Shown piece after piece: positions 12,986 through 24,498 of a stretch of 64,000 nucleotides of DNA. Source of the DNA: Ruegeria sp. TM1040. GTDB lineage: Bacteria > Pseudomonadota > Alphaproteobacteria > Rhodobacterales > Rhodobacteraceae. Within the stretch, counting starts at the first letter, position 1. Each line of letters begins with the position of its first letter. The stretch lies in contig NC_008043.1 in the NCBI RefSeq assembly GCF_000014065.1, positions 428,001 through 492,000 on the forward strand, in the 5' to 3' direction. The translations under genes were made by a program, and so were the position numbers. The notes below the pieces were generated by a model, which saw only the letters and a list, made by a program, of their open reading frames with translations, was not told where the DNA came from and ran no database searches.

Positions 12986-15900
12986 TTATTGGCTGTCCGC
13001 AGCAGGAGATGCGCGCCTGCTCCAGCTGCGCATGTGCTCAAACACGATGAACAACAAGGGGATCAAGATCACGCCAATGACAGCGGATCCGATCATCCCC
13101 GCAAAGACTGGCACCCCAACGGCGAACATGCTGTCAGCCCCCGGACCCGAGGCAGTTACCAGCGGAACCAGACCTGCGATAAAGGCAAAAGAAGTCATCA
13201 TCACCGGACGGAAACGCTCTTGCGCCCCCAAGGCGGCGGCGTCCTCAATCGATTTGCCCTCTCCCAATCGCAACAAAGCAAACTCTACGATCAGGATCGC
13301 GTTCTTGGCCGCCAGCGCGATGAGAACCACGATTCCGATCTGAACATAGACATCAAGGGAAGATCCCGCGACCCAGACGCCAAAAATGGCGACCATTACC
13401 GCGGCCACCACAGAAAGCATGACGCCCACCGGGACATTCCAGCTCTCGTAGAGCGCGACCAGAAACAGATAGGCAAAGAGCAGGGCAAAGCCCAGAACAA
13501 TCCCCGTTTGCCCGGCCGAGCTTTTGACCTCGGACGCCATGCCGGTCCACTCATAGGCAAACCCATCCGGGATGGTTGCTGCGCCGATTTCCTCCATTGC
13601 GGTAATTGCATCGCCATCGCCCACGCCAGCGGCCGGGCTGCCGTTTATCGCCACAGCGCGATAGTTGTTGTAGCGCACCTGAGAGCGTGTGCCGGATTCT
13701 AGGCGCGCGGTCGCAAAGGATGAGACCGGCACCATTTCGCCCGACGCATTTCGGATGCGGATGTTGTTGATCGCGCCAATGTTGCCTCGGTAGTCTGCAT
13801 CGCCATTGACCCAAACCGTAAAGCCTTTGCCAAAGAGGGTAATGTCGTTCACGTAGACCCCGCCCAACGTGCCCTGCAGAGAAGAAAACACCTGCGGCAG
13901 TGTCAGCCCCAGCGTGTAGAGCCGGTCCCGATCAATATCGAGCCGCACCTGTGGAGTGGCTGCCTCAAAGGTAGAGTAAACCGCCGAGAGACGCGGGTCC
14001 TGATTGGCGGAGACGACGACCCCGTTCATGACGGCTGCCATCTCGCGCGGCGATTGCCCCTGTAGCGCCTCCAGCATCATCTCAAAGCCGCCCGTCGCCC
14101 CGGCGCCCGGAAGCGCTGGTGGGTTCAAGGCGATGAAGTTGGCGCCGCCGATCTGCTGCAGGCGGCCCGTGATCCGTCGCACGATCTCCGTCGAGTGCAT
14201 GGCAGGGTCTTCGCGATCGGCAAAATCCGCAAGACGGATAAAGACGATGCCCGCATTCGAGGCCAGACCACCGTCGATCAGGCTGAAACCTGCGATGGTA
14301 ACGATGCTCTCGACGCCCTCTTCCTGGCGGATCAGGGCGTCGCCTGCCTCCAGCACGGCGGTGGTCCGATCCAACGAGGCACCGGGGGGCAGGGTTGCGA
14401 CCGCAAGGATGAAACCCTTGTCTTCTGCCGGCAGAAATCCCGAGGGGGTAATGCTGCCCAGCCGGAAGGTCGCAAAGCCAAAGAGCGCCGTCAGGGCCAG
14501 GCTCAATACAGCCAAACGCGCCAGCCTGCGGATCAGGTTGCCATAGCCTCGGCTGAAGGCATCGATCCCATCAGAGACCCTACGCATGAAGCGGATCGGT
14601 TCGCCAGGTTTCATCAGGATCGCGCAGAGGGCAGGAGAGAGCGTCAGCGCATTGATCGCAGAAATCACCATTGCCGCCGAGATGGTAACCGCGAACTGGC
14701 GAAACAGGACGCCGCTTGATCCGGGCAGGAATGCCACCGGCACAAAGACCGACAATAGCACCAGCGTGATTGCAATGATCGGCCCGGTGATCTCTTTCAT
14801 GGCCTTGCGCGTCGCGTCGGCGGGCGACAGGTGCGGCTCTTCATGCATGACCTTTTCGACGTTCTCGACCACCACGATCGCGTCATCCACCACGATTCCA
14901 ATTGCAAGGATCATCGCCAAGAGCGAAATCGTATTGGCCGAATACCCAAGCGCCAAGAGCACCGCGAATGTGCCCACGATCGAAACGGGAACCGCGATCA
15001 GCGGAATGAGCGTCGGGCGCAAGCGTCCCAGAAAGACAAACACAACGATGCCGACAAGGACAAAGGCCTCGATCAGCGTGTGTTCCACCTTCTTGATCAT
15101 GGCTTCGACAAATTCGGCGGTGTCATAGATAAAGCTGTAGCTTACGCCGTCGGGAAACCGTTCCTGCAACTCTTCGAGCTTGTGGCGCACGGTTTCGGCC
15201 ACCGCGACCGCATTAGCTCCGGGGGAGAGAAACACCGCTATTGGCGCACTCGGCGTGCCTTCAAATCGAGTCTCGACATCGTAGGTCGCTGCGCCAAGCT
15301 CCACGCGGGCCACATCCTTGACGCGCACAAAAGATCCATCGGTCTCGCTGCGGAGGATGATGTTTTCGAACTCATCGGCGCTGGTCAGCTTGCCTTTGGT
15401 AACAATCGTCATCTGCAAGCCCGCACCATCTTCCACAAGAGGGGCCGCGCCGATCCGCCCGGCCGAGGCCTGCAGGTGCTGGCTGCGTATGGCGCTTACG
15501 ATGTCGTCGACGCTCATCTCGCGATCCGACATTTTTTGCGGATCAAGCCAGATGCGCATCGCGTAGTCCCGGACACCGTAGTTGAACACGTCCCCTACGC
15601 CGTCGATGCGCTTTAGCTCGTCGATGATGTTGATCGCGACGAAATTGGCGAGGAACAGTTGGTCATGCGCCGGGTCGTCTGAGTGAAAAGTAAAGACCTG
15701 CAAGATGTCCGTGGAGGCCTTTTTGATCTGAAGGCCCTGATCGCGCACCGCCTGTGGAAGTCGGGGTTCAGCCAACTTTACGCGATTTTGCACGTTCACG
15801 GTGGCGAGATCCGGGTCTTCACCCAACTCGAAGCTCACAGTGAGGCTGTATTCGCCCGCGTTGTTGGAGTTGGAGCGCATGTAACGCATGCCTGAAACCC

Positions 15901-16114
15901 CGTTGACCTGGCTCTCAATCGGCACCGCGATGGCTTCTTCTACGGTTGCCGTGTCCGCACCGCTATAGCTGGCACTGACCTGGACGGTGGGGGGCGCGAT
16001 CTCGGGGTACTGCGCCACCGGAATGGCAGACATGGCGATCAGGCCGGCGATGGTTATGACGATGGAAATCACCATGGCCAGGCGTGGGCGGCGGACAAAG
16101 ACTTCTGAAATCAT
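12986..16114 (-). CDS. RND-family efflux pump inner-membrane transporter
   Basis: 1042 aa, full length for the HAE1 group (AcrB/MexB-like). It starts [15 protein letters not shown], the usual first helix. Helix 4 carries the proton-relay aspartates in [16 protein letters not shown], and GGFEMMLEA and the [18 protein letters not shown] region are typical of hydrophobe/amphiphile exporters. Two large periplasmic loops separate six-helix halves. The adaptor gene lies upstream with an 11-bp gap, so both are co-transcribed. No outer-membrane factor is adjacent, so the pump must borrow a TolC-like protein encoded elsewhere. Substrate unknown. Confidence 0.95.
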
Positions 16115-16125
16115 GGCGCCGCTCC

Positions 16126-17271
16126 CTAGTTGTCTGTGTTCACAAGCGAGACGGTAACCCTGTTGCCCGGACGTGCCTTCTGGATGCCCTCAACAATGAC
16201 CCGCGCACCTGCCTCCAGCCCGTCTTTGACCTCCAGGTACCCGGCCCGCTGGGTGCCCACTTCGACCCGTTGGGCCTGCACTCTGTCGTCACCGTCAACC
16301 ACCAGCACATATGCTCCCTGCTGATCCAGCAAGAGTGCCTGCGCTGGCAGGGCAAGCGCGCGGCTGTCGGCGTTGGCCACCAGATGCACATCCACAAGGC
16401 CGTTGTTGATCAGGAGGTTGTCCGGATTTGGAACCGTCGCGCGGACGATGACCGCATCGCTGGAAGAGGCCGCGCTCACATCGGTGAAGGTGATCACGCC
16501 GTGATGCGGATAAACAGAGCCATCTGCCAAGGTGAGCGAGACAAACACGTCCTCGTTACGCGCGCCCCGTTTGCGAAAATCGATCATGCTGCGCTGAGGC
16601 ACCGGAAAGCTCGCGTAGATCGGATCAAACTGCACGAGGGTCGCCATCGGGCCGGATTGTGGGCTGATCAGATCTCCTGTGGCAACTGCAGATCGCCCGA
16701 TGAGCCCCGAAATAGGCGCGCTGATCTCCGTATAGGCGAGGTTGATCCTCGCTGCTTCTACCTGAGACTGGGCGGCGGCAACATTCGCCTGGCTGACGGC
16801 AAGATTGGCCTGAGCTTCCTCAAGGAGCGCCCGAGATTGCACGTCCCGCCGGGTCAGTTCCTCTTGGCGATCAAACTTCTGCTGCGCCAGGGTTTCGGTG
16901 GCTTGTGCCACGGCTAGTGCCGCCTCTGCCTGATGCACCGTGTTGCGATAGATGTCCTGATCGAGCGTATAGAGAGGCTGCCCTTTCTCGACAAATGCCC
17001 CTTCTTCAAAGTGCCGCGCACTAAGATAACCTTGCACGCGCGCGATCAGATCGACGGATTGAATGGCCTCGATGCGACCCGAAAAAGTTTCGGCTTCTTG
17101 AAAGTTTCGCTCCTCAATGATTGCAACGGTGACGGCAGGCGGTGGCGGCGCGGCATTTTGGTCTTGTGCTGCGGCAGACAAAGGAAGCGCAGTCAACGCG
17201 CATATAAGCAGACAGTTAAGGCGGATCCACGCGCAAAATTGATCCGTTCTGCGATCAATAGAAGAAGCCAT
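16126..17271 (-). CDS. RND efflux periplasmic adaptor (membrane fusion protein)
   Basis: 381 aa from the ATG at 17271, chosen because AAGGAGG lies five bases upstream; an upstream ATG at 17286 lacks spacing. A signal sequence covers about residues 15-36. The lipoyl half-motifs ([17 protein letters not shown] and [18 protein letters not shown]) flank a long alpha-hairpin rich in alanine and glutamine. Beta-barrel and membrane-proximal domains follow. It links the inner-membrane pump downstream to an outer-membrane channel. A palindrome at 17317-17330 upstream may be its operator. Confidence 0.95.
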
Positions 17272-17316
17272 TTCGACCTCCTTCAACTTATGTGTTCAAA
17301 AAACAGAATGTTGCAA

Positions 17317-17505: not shown

Positions 17506-17916
17506 ATGTCGATTTCAAAGTGCCGGATCATCGACCTCCCACGCATAGCGGATGCCCGTGGCAATCTGACCTTCATTGAAGGGCAAAACCACATCCCGTT
17601 CGACATCAAGCGTGTCTACTATCTCTACGATGTGCCAGGCGGGTCCGACCGCGGGGAGCACGCGCACAAGAACCTGCATCAATTCATGGTCTGCATGTCG
17701 GGTAGTTTTGATGTGTGTCTGGACGACGGTTTCGAGAGCAAGCGCATTCAGCTCAACCGGTCTTATTTTGGCATCTACATCTGTCCAATGATCTGGCGGT
17801 ATCTGGACAATTTCTCCTCAGGTGCGGTTTGCATGGTGCTCGCTTCCGAGCCATATGACGAGGCGGATTATATCCGGGATCGGGATGAGTATCTCCGCGC
17901 GGTGCGCGCGTCATGA
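17506..17916 (+). CDS. dTDP-4-oxo-6-deoxyglucose 3,4-ketoisomerase-like protein (FdtA/QdtA/WxcM family)
   Basis: 136 aa, a single cupin-like fold. Members move the keto group of dTDP-4-keto-6-deoxyglucose from C4 to C3, preparing it for amination. Family landmarks are the opening DARGNLTFIE, the RVYYLYDVPGG segment, the catalytic histidines in RGEHAHKNLHQ, and the late ICPMIWRYLDNFS. The aminotransferase that uses this product begins within its stop codon (four-base overlap), which supports the pathway call. Whether the product is of the Fuc3N (fdtA) or Qui3N (qdtA) series cannot be told. The rmlA and rmlB genes that supply the substrate are not in the window. Confidence 0.85.
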   Translation: MSISKCRIIDLPRIADARGNLTFIEGQNHIPFDIKRVYYLYDVPGGSDRGEHAHKNLHQFMVCMSGSFDVCLDDGFESKRIQLNRSYFGIYICPMIWRYLDNFSSGAVCMVLASEPYDEADYIRDRDEYLRAVRAS

Positions 17917-19013
17917 GCGTTTCGTTCCTGGATTTGAGCGCGGCTTATGCAGAGGTTTCGGCAGAACTCGAGGCGGCCGCTCAGCGTGCGATGCGCTCTG
18001 GCTGGTACATTGGCGGGCCAGAAGTTACGGCGTTTGAAACCGCCTTTGCCAAGTTCTGCGACGCAAAAGACGCCATCGGCGTGGCCAATGGTTTGGAGGC
18101 GATAGAGATTGCCCTTCATGCCTTTGAGATTGGCGCAGGGGACGAGGTCATCGTTCCGGCCAACACATTCATCGCGACCTGGCTTGCGGTGGCTCGCCGC
18201 GGTGCGGTGATTGTGCCCGTCGAGCCGGATCCCGAGACCTACAACATCACACCCGAGGCAGTTGCAGAGGCAATCACACCGCGGACACGGGCGGTGATTC
18301 CGGTACATCTTTATGGTCAGCCAGCGGACATCGATGGGATCATGCGCGTCGCGTCAGAGCGTGATCTGATCGTGATCGAAGATGCTGCGCAATGTCATGG
18401 GGCTCGGTGTCACGGCGCGCGGATCGGGAGTGTCGGCCACGCCGCGACTTGGAGCTTTTATCCGTCCAAGAACCTCGGCGCGCTTGGTGATGGCGGTGCG
18501 ATTACCACCAACCATGCCGAAGCCGCCGCGCGCATGCGGTTGCTAAGCAACTACGGATCTTCCCAGAAGTACATTCACGACCTTCCGGGAACAAACAGTC
18601 GCCTGGATCCGCTGCAAGCCGCGATGCTATCGGTCAAGCTTCCACTGCTTGACGAGTGGAATCGTCGTCGACAAGCCGTTGCAGCAGAGTATCTGGATGC
18701 TTTGGCGGAAACCGCGCTTGTTCTGCCCAAAATCGCTGATTGGGCAGAGCCGGTCTGGCATCTCTTCGTCGTCCGCCACCCAGATCGCGACGACCTGATG
18801 ACCGCATTGCGAGAACGTGGGGTGGAGACACTCATTCACTATCCGATCCCGCCGCATCGACAAAACGCTTTCAAAGATCTCGGATTTGGCGAAGGGGCCT
18901 TTCCAATCACGGAACAGATGTCGCAGGAATGCTTTAGCTTGCCAATGGGTCCGCATCTTTCCACCGATGATACCCAGCGCGTGATTGCCGCCCTCAAGGA
19001 GCTCTTGGCGTGA
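17913..19013 (+). CDS. PLP-dependent sugar aminotransferase (DegT/DnrJ/EryC1 family; FdtB/QdtB-like)
   Basis: 366 aa, standard for the family. It transfers an amino group from glutamate to a 3-keto sugar nucleotide. Visible motifs are the N-terminal SGWYIGGPEVTAFE, the GAGDEVIVPANTFIAT stretch, VIEDAAQCHGAR, the PLP-lysine segment SFYPSKNLGALGDGG, and the C-terminal WHLFVVR. It overlaps the ketoisomerase by four bases and the glycosyltransferase by four bases, so all three are translationally coupled. Together they should make and then transfer a dTDP-3-amino-3,6-dideoxyhexose. Confidence 0.9.
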   Translation: MSVSFLDLSAAYAEVSAELEAAAQRAMRSGWYIGGPEVTAFETAFAKFCDAKDAIGVANGLEAIEIALHAFEIGAGDEVIVPANTFIATWLAVARRGAVIVPVEPDPETYNITPEAVAEAITPRTRAVIPVHLYGQPADIDGIMRVASERDLIVIEDAAQCHGARCHGARIGSVGHAATWSFYPSKNLGALGDGGAITTNHAEAAARMRLLSNYGSSQKYIHDLPGTNSRLDPLQAAMLSVKLPLLDEWNRRRQAVAAEYLDALAETALVLPKIADWAEPVWHLFVVRHPDRDDLMTALRERGVETLIHYPIPPHRQNAFKDLGFGEGAFPITEQMSQECFSLPMGPHLSTDDTQRVIAALKELLA

Positions 19014-19975
19014 CGTCGCCAAGCGGGGAGGCCTCGGCATGTCCACGGTGCAGTGTGATTTGCCTCACGTATAATCACGCGGCGTATTCAGCTGCGGCGA
19101 TCGCTTCGGTCGCAGAGCAGACCTATCCCAATATCGAGATCATCGTGGTTGACGATGGATCGACAGACGGCAATGCCGACATCGTAGAAGCGGCACTCAA
19201 GTCGTGCGGACGACCCTACAAATTTTTGCGACAAGAAAATACTGGCAATATCGCGATGAACATGAACCGGGGCATCGCGGCGGCCACTGGCGATTATATG
19301 TCGATGTTCTCACTGGATGACCTGCTGCTTCCAGATTGCATCGCGACCAAGATGGAACTTTTGATCGCGGATCCTAAATTGGTTTTCGTTGCCAATACCT
19401 GCAACATGGAGGTCGACGGGGCCGGGCGGGTGACGGATCCGCTCTACAAATCCGGGCTCTATGAGCTTGAGATCGCGACGGCAGAAGCCTTGCTTGAGCT
19501 TGAATTCGAACACATTGGATTGCTCTACATGCAGGGCGTGGTGATTTCGGCACATGTGGTGCGCGCGATCAAGGGCTATGATGAGGACCTAAAAGGGGAT
19601 GACCTGATCATCCGCACGAAGATCTTTCGTCACATGCAAGCGCATCCTGAACTGGGTTTTTGCCTGCTGCATAGGCCCGGGGTGCAATACCGCAAACACA
19701 GCGAGAACATTCACCGTAACTCATGGCGTCAGGTAAAACTCGCGCTCGAATGGCGGGATCGCTTTTTTCCTGACCGCTCCATGCCGCACCTCTGGCGGGT
19801 TTGGGTCGTTCGTGCGCTCAAGACCTCTATTGCGGAGGGCGATATGGATACCGTGACCACCATGACGTCAGAGCATTCAGAAATTTCCGAGGTCTATAAC
19901 GGCTACCGTGGCAGTTGGAAGTTCTGGCGCAACATGGCGAAAAACAAAATTCGACAGCTGTTTGCGCGCGCCTGA
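19010..19975 (+). CDS. Family 2 glycosyltransferase
   Basis: 321 aa from the GTG at 19010 that overlaps the aminotransferase stop. The GT-A nucleotide-binding fold starts with CSVICLTYNHAAY, continues with IEIIVVDDGSTDGN and has the metal-binding SLDD at about residue 103. A late RKHSENIHRNS loop resembles other GT2 enzymes that act on surface polysaccharide or proteins. No membrane segments are apparent, so it acts at the cytoplasmic face. The likely donor is the amino sugar made by the two upstream genes. It converges on the FemAB-like gene. Confidence 0.88.
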   Translation: MTSPSGEASACPRCSVICLTYNHAAYSAAAIASVAEQTYPNIEIIVVDDGSTDGNADIVEAALKSCGRPYKFLRQENTGNIAMNMNRGIAAATGDYMSMFSLDDLLLPDCIATKMELLIADPKLVFVANTCNMEVDGAGRVTDPLYKSGLYELEIATAEALLELEFEHIGLLYMQGVVISAHVVRAIKGYDEDLKGDDLIIRTKIFRHMQAHPELGFCLLHRPGVQYRKHSENIHRNSWRQVKLALEWRDRFFPDRSMPHLWRVWVVRALKTSIAEGDMDTVTTMTSEHSEISEVYNGYRGSWKFWRNMAKNKIRQLFARA

Positions 19976-20035
19976 AGGGCGACCGAAGCCTGTTCTTTCT
20001 AATCTGGTGTGGGGTTTGATGTGGGCGCGACCGTC

Positions 20036-20977
20036 TCAGAGATCCAGAGCGTAGCGTTGATATATCACGCAGCGCGCGCCAAACATTTCTTTTTGTTGTG
20101 CAAGGCCCGGATTTAGGACAGCCCCCCCTTCGGTGGTTGAGATGCCAAAATCAAACCAGTCGCGATCGGCAAAAACGGATTGGATCAGGTGCAGGATAAT
20201 CGCATCGATCGCACCTGCCGCCCGCCCTTCGGGGTTGCCTGCGATGTACTGAATATGGATGCAGCGCCCGCAGTCAAAGCTCACGACACCTGCCTGCATG
20301 GTGTTGCCTTGCATCGCGCCAAACAAGCGAATGCGACTCGGAAAACTCTGGGCAAGCTGCTCAATCTCTGCCAACGAGTGGGTGGGCGCAGCCTCATGTC
20401 GTTCGGCCAGAACATCAGTCAATATACCCCAGAACGCAGACCAGTCCTGCGTTTCCGAAACGACAAAGCCCTCTTTGGCGGCGCGTTTTGCGGCCTGACG
20501 CCGGGATTGGGATTCCTTTGGGCGGCGGGAGAGGGGAATAGCGGCAGAGGCATCGGTCTGGATCAAGCGTCCGCCAAGACGTGACAGCGCATAGAGATCT
20601 TCCTCTACTGGGGCGCTGTGATAGAAATGCGGTGTTGGCTTGTAAATCAGTTGGGTGGCGCCGGTCTGGCGCAAATACGCGCTGATTGCCGCCATGGTCT
20701 CCAACATCAAACCTGTGCGCATGTCATTTCCGACAATCACACCGCCATAGGTAAGGCCGCCGTGAGAGACAACTTGTGTCTCGCTACGGTTGGCAGGGAG
20801 CAGCGCCAGCACTTTTCCCGCGCGCTTCACCACGAGCGATGCATCATGAAACCGGTCTGCATGGTACTCCATGAAGCGGCGGTCATGCAAAAAAGTGCCA
20901 TTGCGCGACGCCGCGACAAAGGCGTTCCATGCGTCCGCCTCGGACGCGTCATAGGGCTTGACGGTCAGATCAGTCAT
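20036..20977 (-). CDS. FemAB/GNAT-like acyltransferase
   Basis: 313 aa, about twice the size of a single GNAT domain and consistent with the double-GNAT FemAB-like fold. The N-terminal half has GTFLHDRRFMEYH and PANRSETQVVSHGGLTYGG, both typical of FemAB-like proteins in exopolysaccharide and peptidoglycan loci. The C-terminal half ends with a DFGISTTEGG motif, also common in this group. It may acylate or aminoacylate the amino group of a sugar. It is the last of three tightly packed minus-strand genes and overlaps the beta-propeller gene by four bases. Confidence 0.75.
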   Translation of the reverse strand: MTDLTVKPYDASEADAWNAFVAASRNGTFLHDRRFMEYHADRFHDASLVVKRAGKVLALLPANRSETQVVSHGGLTYGGVIVGNDMRTGLMLETMAAISAYLRQTGATQLIYKPTPHFYHSAPVEEDLYALSRLGGRLIQTDASAAIPLSRRPKESQSRRQAAKRAAKEGFVVSETQDWSAFWGILTDVLAERHEAAPTHSLAEIEQLAQSFPSRIRLFGAMQGNTMQAGVVSFDCGRCIHIQYIAGNPEGRAAGAIDAIILHLIQSVFADRDWFDFGISTTEGGAVLNPGLAQQKEMFGARCVIYQRYALDL

Positions 20978-21903
20978 GCCTCAGCCTGCCATTCCGCGAC
21001 GCCGACGCCGGTCTCACCCATGTTGTTTCCGTTGTAAAACAGATAGCTACGACCAGTTGGCGTGTCGATCCTTGCCGGATAGCATGTCATTTCTGCATCC
21101 CAGTCGCCGGGCGCTCCGCGAGGCAGTTCAACCTCATCTGAACGCTGAAACACGATCCCGTCTTTGGAGTGCGCCAAGTGGCTTGAATAGTGCTTGTCGA
21201 ACGTATCCGACGTCACGCGCAGCTCAAAACTGCCATCTGCGAGACGATTGGCACGGGGGCGACCGATGCGGTATTCGGCCTCATTCACATCCATGATCTT
21301 CACTGCATCACGCATGTCAAAGTGAAGGCCATCTTCTGATGGAACCGTCCAGCAATTGTACTGTGGGTAGATGCGCCCGTTGATGTCCTGCCAGCGCTGA
21401 CCGCAGGAAATCCACGCGCGAAACCCGGTCTCTGTTTGGGCAATGCTATGCAGCGCATTGATGAACAACGCTTCGGGCGCGCGATCTAGAACCGGGGTGG
21501 GGAACACCCGGTCAAAGCGCGTGCCAGACGCATCGCTGATCGCTACGCCCGTGAAGGCCAAAAACTTTGCCTTTTCAACAAGCTGAAAGCCCACGTAATA
21601 CATCCGAAGTTCGGCTTCGGACGTTCTGATCACATCTCCAAGAATGACGCCGTTGTCGTCAAACATGCCCGGTTCGCCGAGGTCCAGCGCCGGTGCATCG
21701 CAGACCGCGATCACCCGAAGTGGGTTGTGGGCATCAAGATCGACCCAGCCAATCCGAGAGATACCCGCATCATCGCGCATGCCCCCATAGAGACGAATGA
21801 CATCCGCAGACATCTGCACGGGAACCGGTGTCATGAAACTGTGCTGCGCCCAATCCGCAAATCCGTCGGCGCAATACACCCGACCAAGTTTGTGCCAAGC
21901 CAT
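20974..21903 (-). CDS. Beta-propeller protein related to GH43/GH32-like glycosidases, unknown activity
   Basis: 309 aa without signal peptide or membrane segment. Repeated short blades with alternating aromatic and acidic residues (IRLYGGMRDD, LRMYYVGFQ, FRAWISCG, SYLFYNGNNMGETGVGVAE) suggest a five-bladed propeller. Such proteins are often found in polysaccharide gene clusters, where some are thought to act as transferases rather than hydrolases. It lies one base after the NeuD-like gene and overlaps the FemAB-like gene, so the three are one operon. Its specific reaction is unknown. Confidence 0.6.
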   Translation of the reverse strand: MAWHKLGRVYCADGFADWAQHSFMTPVPVQMSADVIRLYGGMRDDAGISRIGWVDLDAHNPLRVIAVCDAPALDLGEPGMFDDNGVILGDVIRTSEAELRMYYVGFQLVEKAKFLAFTGVAISDASGTRFDRVFPTPVLDRAPEALFINALHSIAQTETGFRAWISCGQRWQDINGRIYPQYNCWTVPSEDGLHFDMRDAVKIMDVNEAEYRIGRPRANRLADGSFELRVTSDTFDKHYSSHLAHSKDGIVFQRSDEVELPRGAPGDWDAEMTCYPARIDTPTGRSYLFYNGNNMGETGVGVAEWQAEA

Positions 21904-21904
21904 G

Positions 21905-22579
21905 TCAGTTCTTGAGTTTGAAGTAACGATAGGTGCTAACCCGCGATGGTTCGGCCGGATGCCCCGTCAGGAGTTGGCCAGGCTCTTTGAAAGACTTATT
22001 GACCACTGTTGCAAGCCCGACAAAGCAGTCTTCGCCGATCTCGATATTGTCGGCAAAGGATGCATTGACGCCGACAAAGCACCGCCGCCCGATCTTGCAA
22101 TACCCCGACACCACGACATGCGAGGAGAGGAAGCAGAACTCTCCAATCTCGGTCTGGTGGCCGATGTGGTTCCCACTCCATAGTACGACACCGTCACCAA
22201 TCTTGACCCCGTGTTGCACAACATTGTTTTCAAAGATGAAAACATTCTCGCCGAGCTCGGCGGTACGCCACACGAAGGCATGCGAACTGATGTAGTTGGC
22301 GAGCCCGTATCCTTTTTCTCGCATGACCCCAACCAGACGCTCTCTGACGCGATTGAGTTGGGTGTTGGTGACGGCCACATGCGCTTTCACTTCCAAAGGA
22401 TCGAAATGATCTTCGACGGTCTCCAGATCGATCAGCGGTAGACCACAATGGGTGTCGCCCTCACGAAAGGCGGCCTCGACGGCAAACCCCACAACGTCAT
22501 AATCGGAGTCATAGGTAAAATACTCATAGGCGATGTCGGCAAATTCGCCTGCGCCCACGATCAACAAGGGTGTCGTCAT
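21905..22579 (-). CDS. NeuD/PglD-like sugar O- or N-acetyltransferase (left-handed beta-helix)
   Basis: 224 aa. An N-terminal Rossmann-like part (LLIVGAGEFADIAYEYF) is followed by hexapeptide repeats forming a left-handed beta-helix (about residues 95-205). The conserved catalytic histidine context is SGNHIGHQTEIG. This is the domain order of PglD, NeuD and related acetyl-CoA-dependent sugar acetyltransferases. In this island it is the best candidate to acetylate the 3-amino sugar made by the neighbouring plus-strand operon. The first gene of its minus-strand operon, it is divergent from the OGT-like gene. Confidence 0.82.
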   Translation of the reverse strand: MTTPLLIVGAGEFADIAYEYFTYDSDYDVVGFAVEAAFREGDTHCGLPLIDLETVEDHFDPLEVKAHVAVTNTQLNRVRERLVGVMREKGYGLANYISSHAFVWRTAELGENVFIFENNVVQHGVKIGDGVVLWSGNHIGHQTEIGEFCFLSSHVVVSGYCKIGRRCFVGVNASFADNIEIGEDCFVGLATVVNKSFKEPGQLLTGHPAEPSRVSTYRYFKLKN

Positions 22580-22815
22580 ATCATCACTGCCTCAGCTTTT
22601 TACCTGCCAGTGATATACGTGAGTCATGGCGTGAATGAAATCCAAGAATGTTTCGTGACGTGGCAGCCCTTAAGCCGAGACCACTATATGGGGCTTCATA
22701 TTGGGCTTCGTAACTCCTTCCCGCACGTCTCGTCGTCTTTGAAAGGATCTTAAGTTTCGCACGGTACGCTCGGGTTCTGACCCACGACACCCAGCTTTGG
22801 AAGACGGACCTTGAA

Positions 22816-24498
22816 ATGACCATTGCGTTTTCTCCCCGCGATCTGACCCCGCTCTATGCTTCGGCGGTTGCGCTGCTCAATGCGGGCAATCTTGCAGCAG
22901 CGAGGGAACAGCTTTTGCGGTCTTTGCATGAAGAAGGGGAGACGGCGCTCAGCTACCACTATCTCGCGCAGATCCTCGAGCGCGCCGGTGGGCCCGGCAC
23001 CGAGGTGCTGGCGGCGCAGGCCAATGCGTTGAAATGTGCGCCCAACCACCCGGTGTTTCTGGCAGCACTCGGTGTGCGCTTGGTTGATGCCGGGCGCGAT
23101 CAAGATGCGCTTGTGCTCCTCAGGAAGGCGCTGGAGATCGACCCCCAAAACCCTCTGGCGCTCCCCTGGGTCATGCGGCTCAATCGCCGCTACTTGCAGT
23201 GGACCTCATATGAGGAAGAGGCCGCAGCATGTGAGATGCTCCTCAAGAGCGCGCACAAGGTGGATCCGCTGCTCTCGCTGACATTTGTGGATGATCCAGC
23301 CCAGCAGTTGAAGATCGCCGCACGCAGCGCGCCCGATGTCGCCGTTCAGCCGCTGGAGCCGCATGCCCCGCATGAAAAGATCCGTGTCGGGTATTTCTCG
23401 GCAGATTTCAGCGAACATGCCACGATGCATCTGATCGAAGGGCTGATTGAGGCGCACGACAAAGGCGTCTTTGAATTCCATGTGTATGATTTCAAACCGG
23501 ATCCCACGTCTCGCCAGCATCAGATCATCCGTGATTTTGCAGATTGCTATCACGACGTTAGTGCGCTTTCGGCCGCAGAAACGGCCGCGTTGGCCCGCCA
23601 GGAGCAGCTTGATATTGCCGTTGATCTCAAGGGGATCACCACCGACTCGCGACCAATGATCTTTGCGCTCCGGGTCGCGCCTGTGCAGGTTTCATTTCTG
23701 GGATTTCCAGGCACAACCGCGATTGCGGAAATGGACTATATGATCGCGGATCGCATCACCATTCCTGACGGGGATGAACGGTTTTACAGCGAAAAGATTC
23801 TCCGCCTGCCGGGATGCTACCAGCCCAACACGAATTCGCGCATCCTGCCTGAGGGGGCAGGTGGGCGCGCCGCCTTTGGCCTGCCGGACGACCGGTTTGT
23901 ATTCGCGAGCTTCAATCATCCGCACAAGGTTGGCCCGAGCGAATTTGCAACTTGGATGGAGATTTTGCGCGAGGTGCCGCAGGCGGTGCTCCTGTTCTAT
24001 TCCGGAAAGGCGGACCTGGGCGCCGCGCTGGCCGAACGAGCCCAGGCCCACGGGGTTGAGCCGTCGCGGGTCTTGGCCTGCGGCCCGCTTCCCCAGACGG
24101 CGCATCTGGAGCGGATCGCGCAGGTCGATCTTTGTCTGGATTGTTTTGCCTACAATGCCCATACCACCGCTTCGGATGCGGTCTGGGCGGGGGTGCCCTT
24201 GCTGACGCTTGCAGGTCGTCAGTTTGCGGCACGCGTTGCGACCAGCATCCTGTCTACGGCGGGTGTGCCGGAACTCTCGACGGTCTCGACCAAGGACTAT
24301 GTGGCAAAGGCGGTGCATCTTGCCACCCACCCAGAGGATCTTCTGGCCCTAAGGCAGAAAATTTCAGCGGCGCGGCACGGCTCGCCTCTCTTTGATACCA
24401 AGCGCTGGACCCGTGACTACGAGGCTCTCTTGCAGATGTGCTATCAACGCCACCGGGCCGGTGAGGCACCCGACCACATGTCCCTCAGCGACGGCTGA
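22816..24498 (+). CDS. TPR protein with SPINDLY/OGT-type glycosyltransferase domain (GT41)
   Basis: 560 aa. Residues 1-150 form about four TPR-like helical repeats. The catalytic part starts near residue 185 with RVGYFSADFSEHATMHL, continues with QVSFLGFPGTTA, MDYMIADRITIPD, FASFNHPHKV and ends with HTTASDAVWAGVPLLTL. These are the landmarks of O-GlcNAc transferase-like GT41 enzymes, which transfer a sugar from UDP-GlcNAc to serine or threonine of proteins. The histidine of FSEHA corresponds to the catalytic-region His. Related bacterial enzymes modify flagellin or adhesins; no such target is encoded here. It ends four bases before trhO, which converges on it. Confidence 0.88.
   Translation: MTIAFSPRDLTPLYASAVALLNAGNLAAAREQLLRSLHEEGETALSYHYLAQILERAGGPGTEVLAAQANALKCAPNHPVFLAALGVRLVDAGRDQDALVLLRKALEIDPQNPLALPWVMRLNRRYLQWTSYEEEAAACEMLLKSAHKVDPLLSLTFVDDPAQQLKIAARSAPDVAVQPLEPHAPHEKIRVGYFSADFSEHATMHLIEGLIEAHDKGVFEFHVYDFKPDPTSRQHQIIRDFADCYHDVSALSAAETAALARQEQLDIAVDLKGITTDSRPMIFALRVAPVQVSFLGFPGTTAIAEMDYMIADRITIPDGDERFYSEKILRLPGCYQPNTNSRILPEGAGGRAAFGLPDDRFVFASFNHPHKVGPSEFATWMEILREVPQAVLLFYSGKADLGAALAERAQAHGVEPSRVLACGPLPQTAHLERIAQVDLCLDCFAYNAHTTASDAVWAGVPLLTLAGRQFAARVATSILSTAGVPELSTVSTKDYVAKAVHLATHPEDLLALRQKISAARHGSPLFDTKRWTRDYEALLQMCYQRHRAGEAPDHMSLSDG

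Follow-up and report, generated by a model that had tools for sequence, protein, structure and literature searches.

A putative aminoacyl-amino-sugar cassette beside an apparently resident GT41 gene in Ruegeria sp. TM1040

The window analysed here is a 64,000-nucleotide stretch of Ruegeria sp. TM1040 (contig NC_008043.1, positions 428,001 to 492,000), in which seven genes, named A to G in this study (Table 1), lie side by side at window positions 17506-24498. An earlier reading of the letters alone (the sequence-only reading) had described them as a single glycosylation island made up of two outward operons and a GT41 gene. The open reading frame (ORF) check of the window confirmed that all seven ORFs are present, and the earlier family calls held for A, B, C, D (as PF13480), F and G. 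Since the gene pairs A-B, B-C and D-E each overlap by 4 bp and E and F are spaced by 1 nt, the trios A-B-C and F-E-D both look like operons; however, they are convergent rather than outward, with 60 nt between their ends. No transmembrane segment was detected in A-G by a simple hydropathy scan, and no tRNA or Rfam match marking an insertion point was found within the window.

Table 1. Genes of the locus, with window coordinates and the family evidence for each assignment.
Gene	Coordinates	Strand	Assignment	Evidence
A	17506..17916	+	FdtA/QdtA-type dTDP-4-keto-6-deoxyglucose 3,4-ketoisomerase	PF05523 6e-60, 201 bits vs cut-off 23
B	17913..19013	+	Pyridoxal phosphate (PLP)-dependent sugar 3-aminotransferase (DesV/QdtB group)	DegT family 388 bits; PDB matches
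C	19010..19975	+	GT2 glycosyltransferase	PF00535 9e-24, 85 bits
D	20036..20977	-	Double-GNAT transferase of FemABX fold, predicted to aminoacylate an amino sugar from aminoacyl-tRNA	PF13480 33 bits, cut-off 22
E	20974..21903	-	Five-bladed beta-propeller, GH130/GH43/GH117-like predicted fold	No Pfam family at 0.1
F	21905..22579	-	NeuD/PglD-type left-handed beta-helix (hexapeptide) N-acyltransferase	TIGR03570 186.5 bits, cut-off 160.8
G	22816..24498	+	Tetratricopeptide repeat (TPR) + GT41 (OGT-like) protein	PF13844 240 bits, cut-off 25

Gene A was placed among the FdtA/QdtA ketoisomerases, its PF05523 match lying over the cut-off and its cupin histidines being present. The PDB search returned 5tpu as the closest solved chain, followed by FdtA-type and QdtA chains, and the HxH motif of the cupin is kept, H52 and H54 being unchanged across an alignment of 12 sequences; these histidines are catalytic in FdtA and QdtA. 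The residue pair R18/R98 of A is identical in 5tpu, which we take to be WlaRB, a quinovose-type enzyme; the corresponding residues are Y17/R97 in QdtA 4o9e and R17/H97 in the variant 4zu7. Thoden, Holden and colleagues reportedly found that the pair Tyr17/Arg97 gives the gluco product and Arg/His the galacto product. By alignment, the pair in A is mixed between the Y/R of QdtA and the R/H of 4zu7, and the gluco form, 3-amino-3,6-dideoxyglucose (Qui3N), appears more likely than the galacto form, the stereochemistry being uncertain. The best PDB matches of B were 2oga (8e-116), presumably DesV, and QdtB (6e-109), both taken to be 3-aminotransferases; matches to named 4-aminotransferases such as perosamine synthetase and ArnB were weaker (2e-54 or worse). 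The PLP lysine is aligned and kept in SFYPSKNLG; the ranking of the matches and this lysine place B in the 3-aminotransferase (DesV/QdtB) group, and none of the NCBIfam equivalog cut-offs was attained.

The rml genes for the precursor had been reported as missing from the window, and for RmlB this was confirmed. RmlB (488 bits, cut-off 365) and RmlA (463 bits, cut-off 361) are both encoded on contig C1 (131 kb) of the same genome, in surroundings that resemble the rfbB-A-D-C region found on plasmids of Tritonibacter and Phaeobacter. RmlB gave eight matches in the genome and none on contig C2, which holds the window (about 822 kb, by subtraction); for RmlA the one identification is next to RmlB on C1, the genome-wide search having been made for RmlB and not for RmlA, RmlC or RmlD. 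The family assignments thus support the earlier proposal of a 3-amino-3,6-dideoxyhexose pathway followed by N-acylation and a transferase, and on sequence grounds the steps to the deoxythymidine diphosphate (dTDP)-linked 3-amino-3,6-dideoxyhexose are well supported.

The AlphaFold model of D (predicted local distance difference test score, pLDDT, 87.7) has the double-GNAT, FemX-like fold. When the model was used in a structure search, the first 11 PDB ranks, representing five proteins, were all of FemABX type with template modelling (TM) scores of 0.65-0.69, led by Sbb17 and Sba18 and followed by Weissella FemX, FemX and Staphylococcus aureus FemA. Among the 50 best matches listed, entries of the aminoacyl-PG synthase type scored 0.55-0.63 and coenzyme A (CoA)-dependent tandem GNATs 0.35-0.52. 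The PDB sequence search at E 1 gave only two matches, both weak (0.004 and 0.006) and both of the Sbb17/Sba18 type. Sbb17 and Sba18 are aminoacyl-tRNA-dependent peptide synthases, and two of their three entries contain the amino sugar streptothrisamine; the related Orf11 converts streptothrisamine to glycylthricin using Gly-tRNA, and the reactive residue of FemX is Lys305 (both from PMC12945691, in part). D carries a lysine, K296, in the C-terminal motif LNxGLxxQKExFG; it is invariant in 11 of 11 sequences and may correspond to Lys305 of FemX. Judged from its model, D looks like an aminoacyl-tRNA-dependent enzyme working on an amino sugar.

The genomic distribution of D is narrow. Full-length D was found in one of 18 genomes of the genus, the window's own (G000), with three others giving partial matches only (1e-5 to 1e-4). 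Among 295 genomes of the family, D occurs in four, each with a homologue of B at most 1.1 kb away, and FdtA is also nearby in three of them, G018 being the exception. Outside the family, the Bacteroidota strain Prevotella sp. oral taxon 299 holds a minimal set in which FdtA, D and an aminotransferase follow one another with touching genes (locus L060, 7541-10039), and no E or F match was found within 7 to 8 kb of this D. The linkage of D to the aminotransferase and FdtA in the family genomes and in Prevotella points to a 3-amino sugar as the acceptor of D. FdtA itself is found in 25 of the 295 family genomes, often without D or E.

Searching the genome collection with E alone yielded 11 loci, nine of them roseobacter-type, in which the seven genes and four of their neighbours were then looked for at an E-value of 1e-8. 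F was present in all 11 loci, B and D in 10 each, A in nine, C in three and G in none; looser clustering adds C in L006 and L009. Three of the loci are short contigs (L001, 5.8 kb; L003, 8.2 kb; L011, 4.1 kb, with partial F and B only) that do not reach into the distant flanks. The flanking RND pump (resistance-nodulation-division type), its membrane fusion protein (MFP), the rhodanese and the nicotinamidase were found in none of the 11. Genes A and B stand back to back with an F-E group in seven loci (L001, L002, L003, L004, L006, L009 and L010), an additional gene stands between E and D in L010, and the gene order is shuffled across the loci, with at least three orders (for example L005 and L008). 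Such differences in order suggest that it is the function and not the synteny that has been preserved, and the grouping of A, B, D, E and F is not due to chance. The co-occurrence in other roseobacters that the sequence-only reading called for was therefore found for these five genes. Its expectation that the genes stay together in relatives fared unevenly: D keeps its B-like aminotransferase in all four family genomes, the GT41 gene occurs apart (in Tritonibacter mobilis, described below, and from all 11 E loci), and A, a generic pathway gene, also exists apart from the others (of 295 genomes, 25 have FdtA, four have D and nine have E, with D in only three of the nine).

The model of E (pLDDT 89.4) forms a propeller of five blades close to GH130, GH43 and GH117, with TM-scores of about 0.7 and 13-16% identity in the best structural matches; GT108 also comprises related five-bladed propeller enzymes. 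No membrane or signal segment was seen in the hydropathy plot, and D82 and D269 are invariant acidic residues of E. The profile match to a GH130 chain (1.2e-11) falls in two blade-shifted stretches, and the family models of the GH130 type were not reached, with no Pfam match at 0.1 and 16.2 bits against a cut-off of 450 for the NCBIfam mannobiose phosphorylase. The LEDPR segment of the GH130 chain, relevant to the role of the catalytic Asp in GH130 (PMC4599007, in part), lies opposite IGRPR of E in an alignment that is itself blade-shifted (E 129-253 on chain 5-135). E was not accepted as an ordinary GH130 phosphorylase because all the family models were unreached; the Asp-to-Arg alignment, being blade-shifted, was not decisive.

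Homologues of E were found in nine of the 295 family genomes. Three of these genomes (G000, G043 and G176) also carry D. The E homologues of the remaining six are distant (best identity 28-32%), and one of the six, G136, has FdtA on another contig. The family of E, seen in Alphaproteobacteria, a Bernardetia and a Myxococcales metagenome-assembled genome, thus appears to have a wider life beyond the cassette with D. The annotated context of the E homologue, with flanks of 7 to 14 kb, was taken from 13 of the 30 plasmid records that hold one: a DegT-family aminotransferase (rffA counted) was present in 10 of the 13, an acetyltransferase or GNAT in 11, WbqC in nine and FdtA in two. These counts suggest that E accompanies acylated amino sugars generally, and distant E relatives sit among glycosyltransferase, methyltransferase and O-antigen-type genes. 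Adjacent pairs of propeller-type genes were seen with WbqC, small GNAT and methyltransferase genes at L035, L050 and L051, where WbqC may stand in for D; the open-access literature on WbqC gave nothing useful. On a plasmid of Leisingera sp. M527 (L033, 1-14912), an RTX protein exceeding 4000 aa is encoded 1.7 kb away from a propeller homologue. PhyH-type dioxygenase genes near E (L009 14025-14882, L011 2914-3723 and L055 5229-6044) could serve to hydroxylate the acyl group.

F belongs to the NeuD/PglD group, its TIGR03570 score being over the cut-off; it stands beside E in close relatives and was found with E in all 11 loci, the match in L011 being partial. C may decorate a glycan made elsewhere, since the hydropathy scan predicts no membrane segment in it. 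A GT2 gene from its loose cluster is present in the window and in eight of the 15 loci clustered. Where GT2 was not found, GT-B-like proteins of about 490-540 aa were observed (L002 11871-13334, L004 13946-15571 and L008 11015-12589). These and the corresponding protein of G043 gave Pfam matches below cut-off only, and they were left as unassigned GT-B proteins rather than placed in GT41, hhalign giving probabilities of 35% and 90% over only 79 and 130 columns.

We propose that A-F form one cassette by which an aminoacylated, capped 3-amino sugar is made and transferred, and that G is a resident neighbour, a reading whose chances we judge to be evenly balanced. RmlA and RmlB, from the other contig, would supply dTDP-4-keto-6-deoxyglucose; A would shift the keto group to C3, and B would aminate the product to dTDP-3-amino-3,6-dideoxyhexose. 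D, to judge by its predicted fold and gene linkage, would then move an amino acid from aminoacyl-tRNA onto the 3-amino group, and F would acylate, probably acetylate, either the terminal amine thus created or a sugar that has not been aminoacylated, making an N-acyl-aminoacyl-Qui3N possible. C would attach the completed residue to a glycan already present or another acceptor, and E may carry out a tailoring or transfer step of unnamed kind. More tentatively, D may be the missing enzyme type for N-aminoacyl sugars, a FemX-fold enzyme working from charged tRNA on the nucleotide-activated 3-amino-3,6-dideoxyhexose, and E a new propeller enzyme family acting on the acylated sugar rather than a glycosidase; we regard this combination as possible but doubtful.

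Several points weigh against the proposed cassette function. D has no Pfam FemAB match at 0.1 and reaches only 47.5 bits with the TIGR03019 FemAB model, far under the cut-off of 260.35, so that the earlier FemAB-like call stands at the level of the predicted fold and fails at that of the named families. The segment holding K296 is modelled at a pLDDT of 55-66, fold similarity of a predicted model is not proof of tRNA use, and acyl-CoA may be the donor for some PF13480 proteins. Acetylation of the sugar could be the work of F alone, in competition with D, and E is left unexplained by the mechanism. The 19 kb of locus L007 include F-E-D but neither A nor B, and of the nine family genomes with E, D is present in three and FdtA in four. 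No glycan export or polymerase family (Wzx/Wzy, ABC export) was found among the seven genes and 20 of 52 other picked window ORFs. The low FemAB scores also favour an alternative in which the pathway is the same but D depends on acyl-CoA or acyl-acyl carrier protein, so that a plain N-acyl sugar (Qui3NAc or a hydroxyacyl derivative) would be made without tRNA; PF13480 is named as a GNAT domain, and E relatives adjoin small GNAT proteins in Rhizobium and Tateyamaria. On the other hand, the top eleven PDB matches of D are all of the FemABX type and exceed the CoA-dependent tandem GNATs listed in TM-score, and a standard N-acyltransferase is already supplied by F. We consider this alternative rather unlikely.

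G belongs to GT41, and its H201 and K371 align with the His and Lys of XcOGT, residues that are catalytic in GT41 enzymes. These residues are in keeping with the idea that all seven genes serve protein glycosylation, the GT41 enzyme attaching the acylated sugar to proteins as FlmG does with pseudaminic acid on Caulobacter flagellins. GT41 matches were obtained in 55 of the 295 family genomes at 1e-3, many over the TPR part only; four genomes have both FdtA and GT41 (G000, G013, G086 and G252), within 7 kb of each other in all but G013, which also speaks for this idea. Giant GT61+GT41 proteins of 1932 and 1967 aa lie directly after the FdtA-aminotransferase pair in G086 (L042 9463-15261) and G252 (L043 8220-14123), where they adjoin RTX/M10-type proteins, an organisation unlike that of the window. 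These two loci are possibly RTX-protein glycosylation loci; neither genome has a D or E match, and the open-access literature on roseobacter glycans and RTX glycosylation offered nothing direct. However, in a survey of 385 genomes of the class (FdtA in 50, GT41 in 147), no other FdtA-GT41 pair within 10 kb was found among the matches listed, which for GT41 comprise the strongest only, and the absence of GT41 from the 11 E loci (three of them short contigs) and the presence of a second GT41 gene in the same genome argue against the idea. That second TPR-GT41 gene lies on contig C3 of G000 (1185458-1187119; L040). The GT41 locus of G293 has neighbours of similar size, a comparison by size only.

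DNA of the window between 14 and 34 kb matches two T. mobilis megaplasmids from inside G onward, the match starting at 22918. A collinear stretch of about 30 kb in T. mobilis is headed by G (68% identity) and continues through rhodanese, nicotinamidase, histidine kinase and further genes to about 52 kb of the window. Protein comparison at 1e-5 found no match to A-F or the pump in the fetched T. mobilis stretch, and in T. mobilis F1926 a distance of about 137 kb separates this stretch from the nqr operon, which in the window lies left of the pump. No E or D homologue at 1e-5 was found in the Tritonibacter plasmid records, the T. mobilis chromosomes lying outside this search, and another FdtA is carried by T. 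mobilis plasmids of 136 to 147 kb. The synteny without A-F, together with the rarity of D in the genus, suggests that the six genes A-F (17506-22579) are an accessory cassette, apparently acquired, which looks to have been inserted beside the resident GT41 gene (22816-24498). The one-system proposal therefore survives for A-F and not for G, whose linkage to the cassette by descent is not supported; GT41 as the cassette transferase was rejected as a likely assignment after the T. mobilis synteny, the claim that it attaches the sugar found no support, and we consider the seven-gene protein glycosylation system improbable.

The RND efflux pump and its MFP gene occupy window positions 12986-17286 between the nqr operon and the cassette, the MFP gene starting about 220 bp from A in divergent orientation, and they may have arrived together with the cassette. 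This arrangement and the resemblance of D to antibiotic-pathway enzymes would fit a small amino-sugar natural product exported by the pump, but none of the 11 related loci contains the pump in the stretches retrieved, and the neighbours of more distant E relatives include genes of glycosyltransferase, methyltransferase and O-antigen type, which makes this explanation very improbable.

Compared with known systems, the first half of the proposed A-F cassette is of a known kind, and the second half (D, E and the NeuD-type F) is of unusual make-up, with the roles of D and F being predictions. Like FdtABC and QdtABC, which make dTDP-Fuc3NAc and dTDP-Qui3NAc, the cassette combines a ketoisomerase, a 3-aminotransferase and an N-acyltransferase acting on the RmlAB product (PMC5560731, in part); it differs in its NeuD-type acyltransferase, in the additional D and E and in having the rml genes on another contig. 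E shares a predicted fold and a weak profile match with GH130, GH43 and GH117 enzymes, but its identity to them is low, it fits no family model and it lies in a biosynthetic operon; as a family without Pfam match that recurs near sugar aminotransferases and N-acyltransferases, it marks an unrecognised step. FlmG, the Caulobacter flagellin glycosyltransferase, is similar to G in its TPR plus GT-B architecture, by description only, but it works with pseudaminic acid (PMC7591256, in part), and G is not tied to the cassette by descent. D shares with the FemABX proteins of streptothricin pathways (Sbb17/Sba18 and Orf11) the predicted double-GNAT fold, its invariant Lys in a C-terminal QKExFG may correspond to the reactive Lys of FemX, and its proposed role shares their amino sugar acceptor; in contrast to them, it shows about 16% identity in the structural match, would belong to a dTDP-sugar rather than an antibiotic pathway, and its tRNA use is predicted only. 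Located beside FdtA and a 3-aminotransferase in Alphaproteobacteria and a Prevotella, D is a concrete, assayable candidate that, if the prediction is true, would connect charged tRNAs with surface-sugar chemistry. Among the titles and abstract openings of the open-access literature surveyed and the available part of PMC3210612, no aminoacylating enzyme for N-aminoacyl sugars was named. According to that part of PMC3210612, 3-(N-acetyl-alanyl)amino-3,6-dideoxyglucose is known in Pseudoalteromonas and Aeromonas and in marine polysaccharides, and this N-acetyl-alanyl Qui3N is the type of product that our model predicts for alanine.

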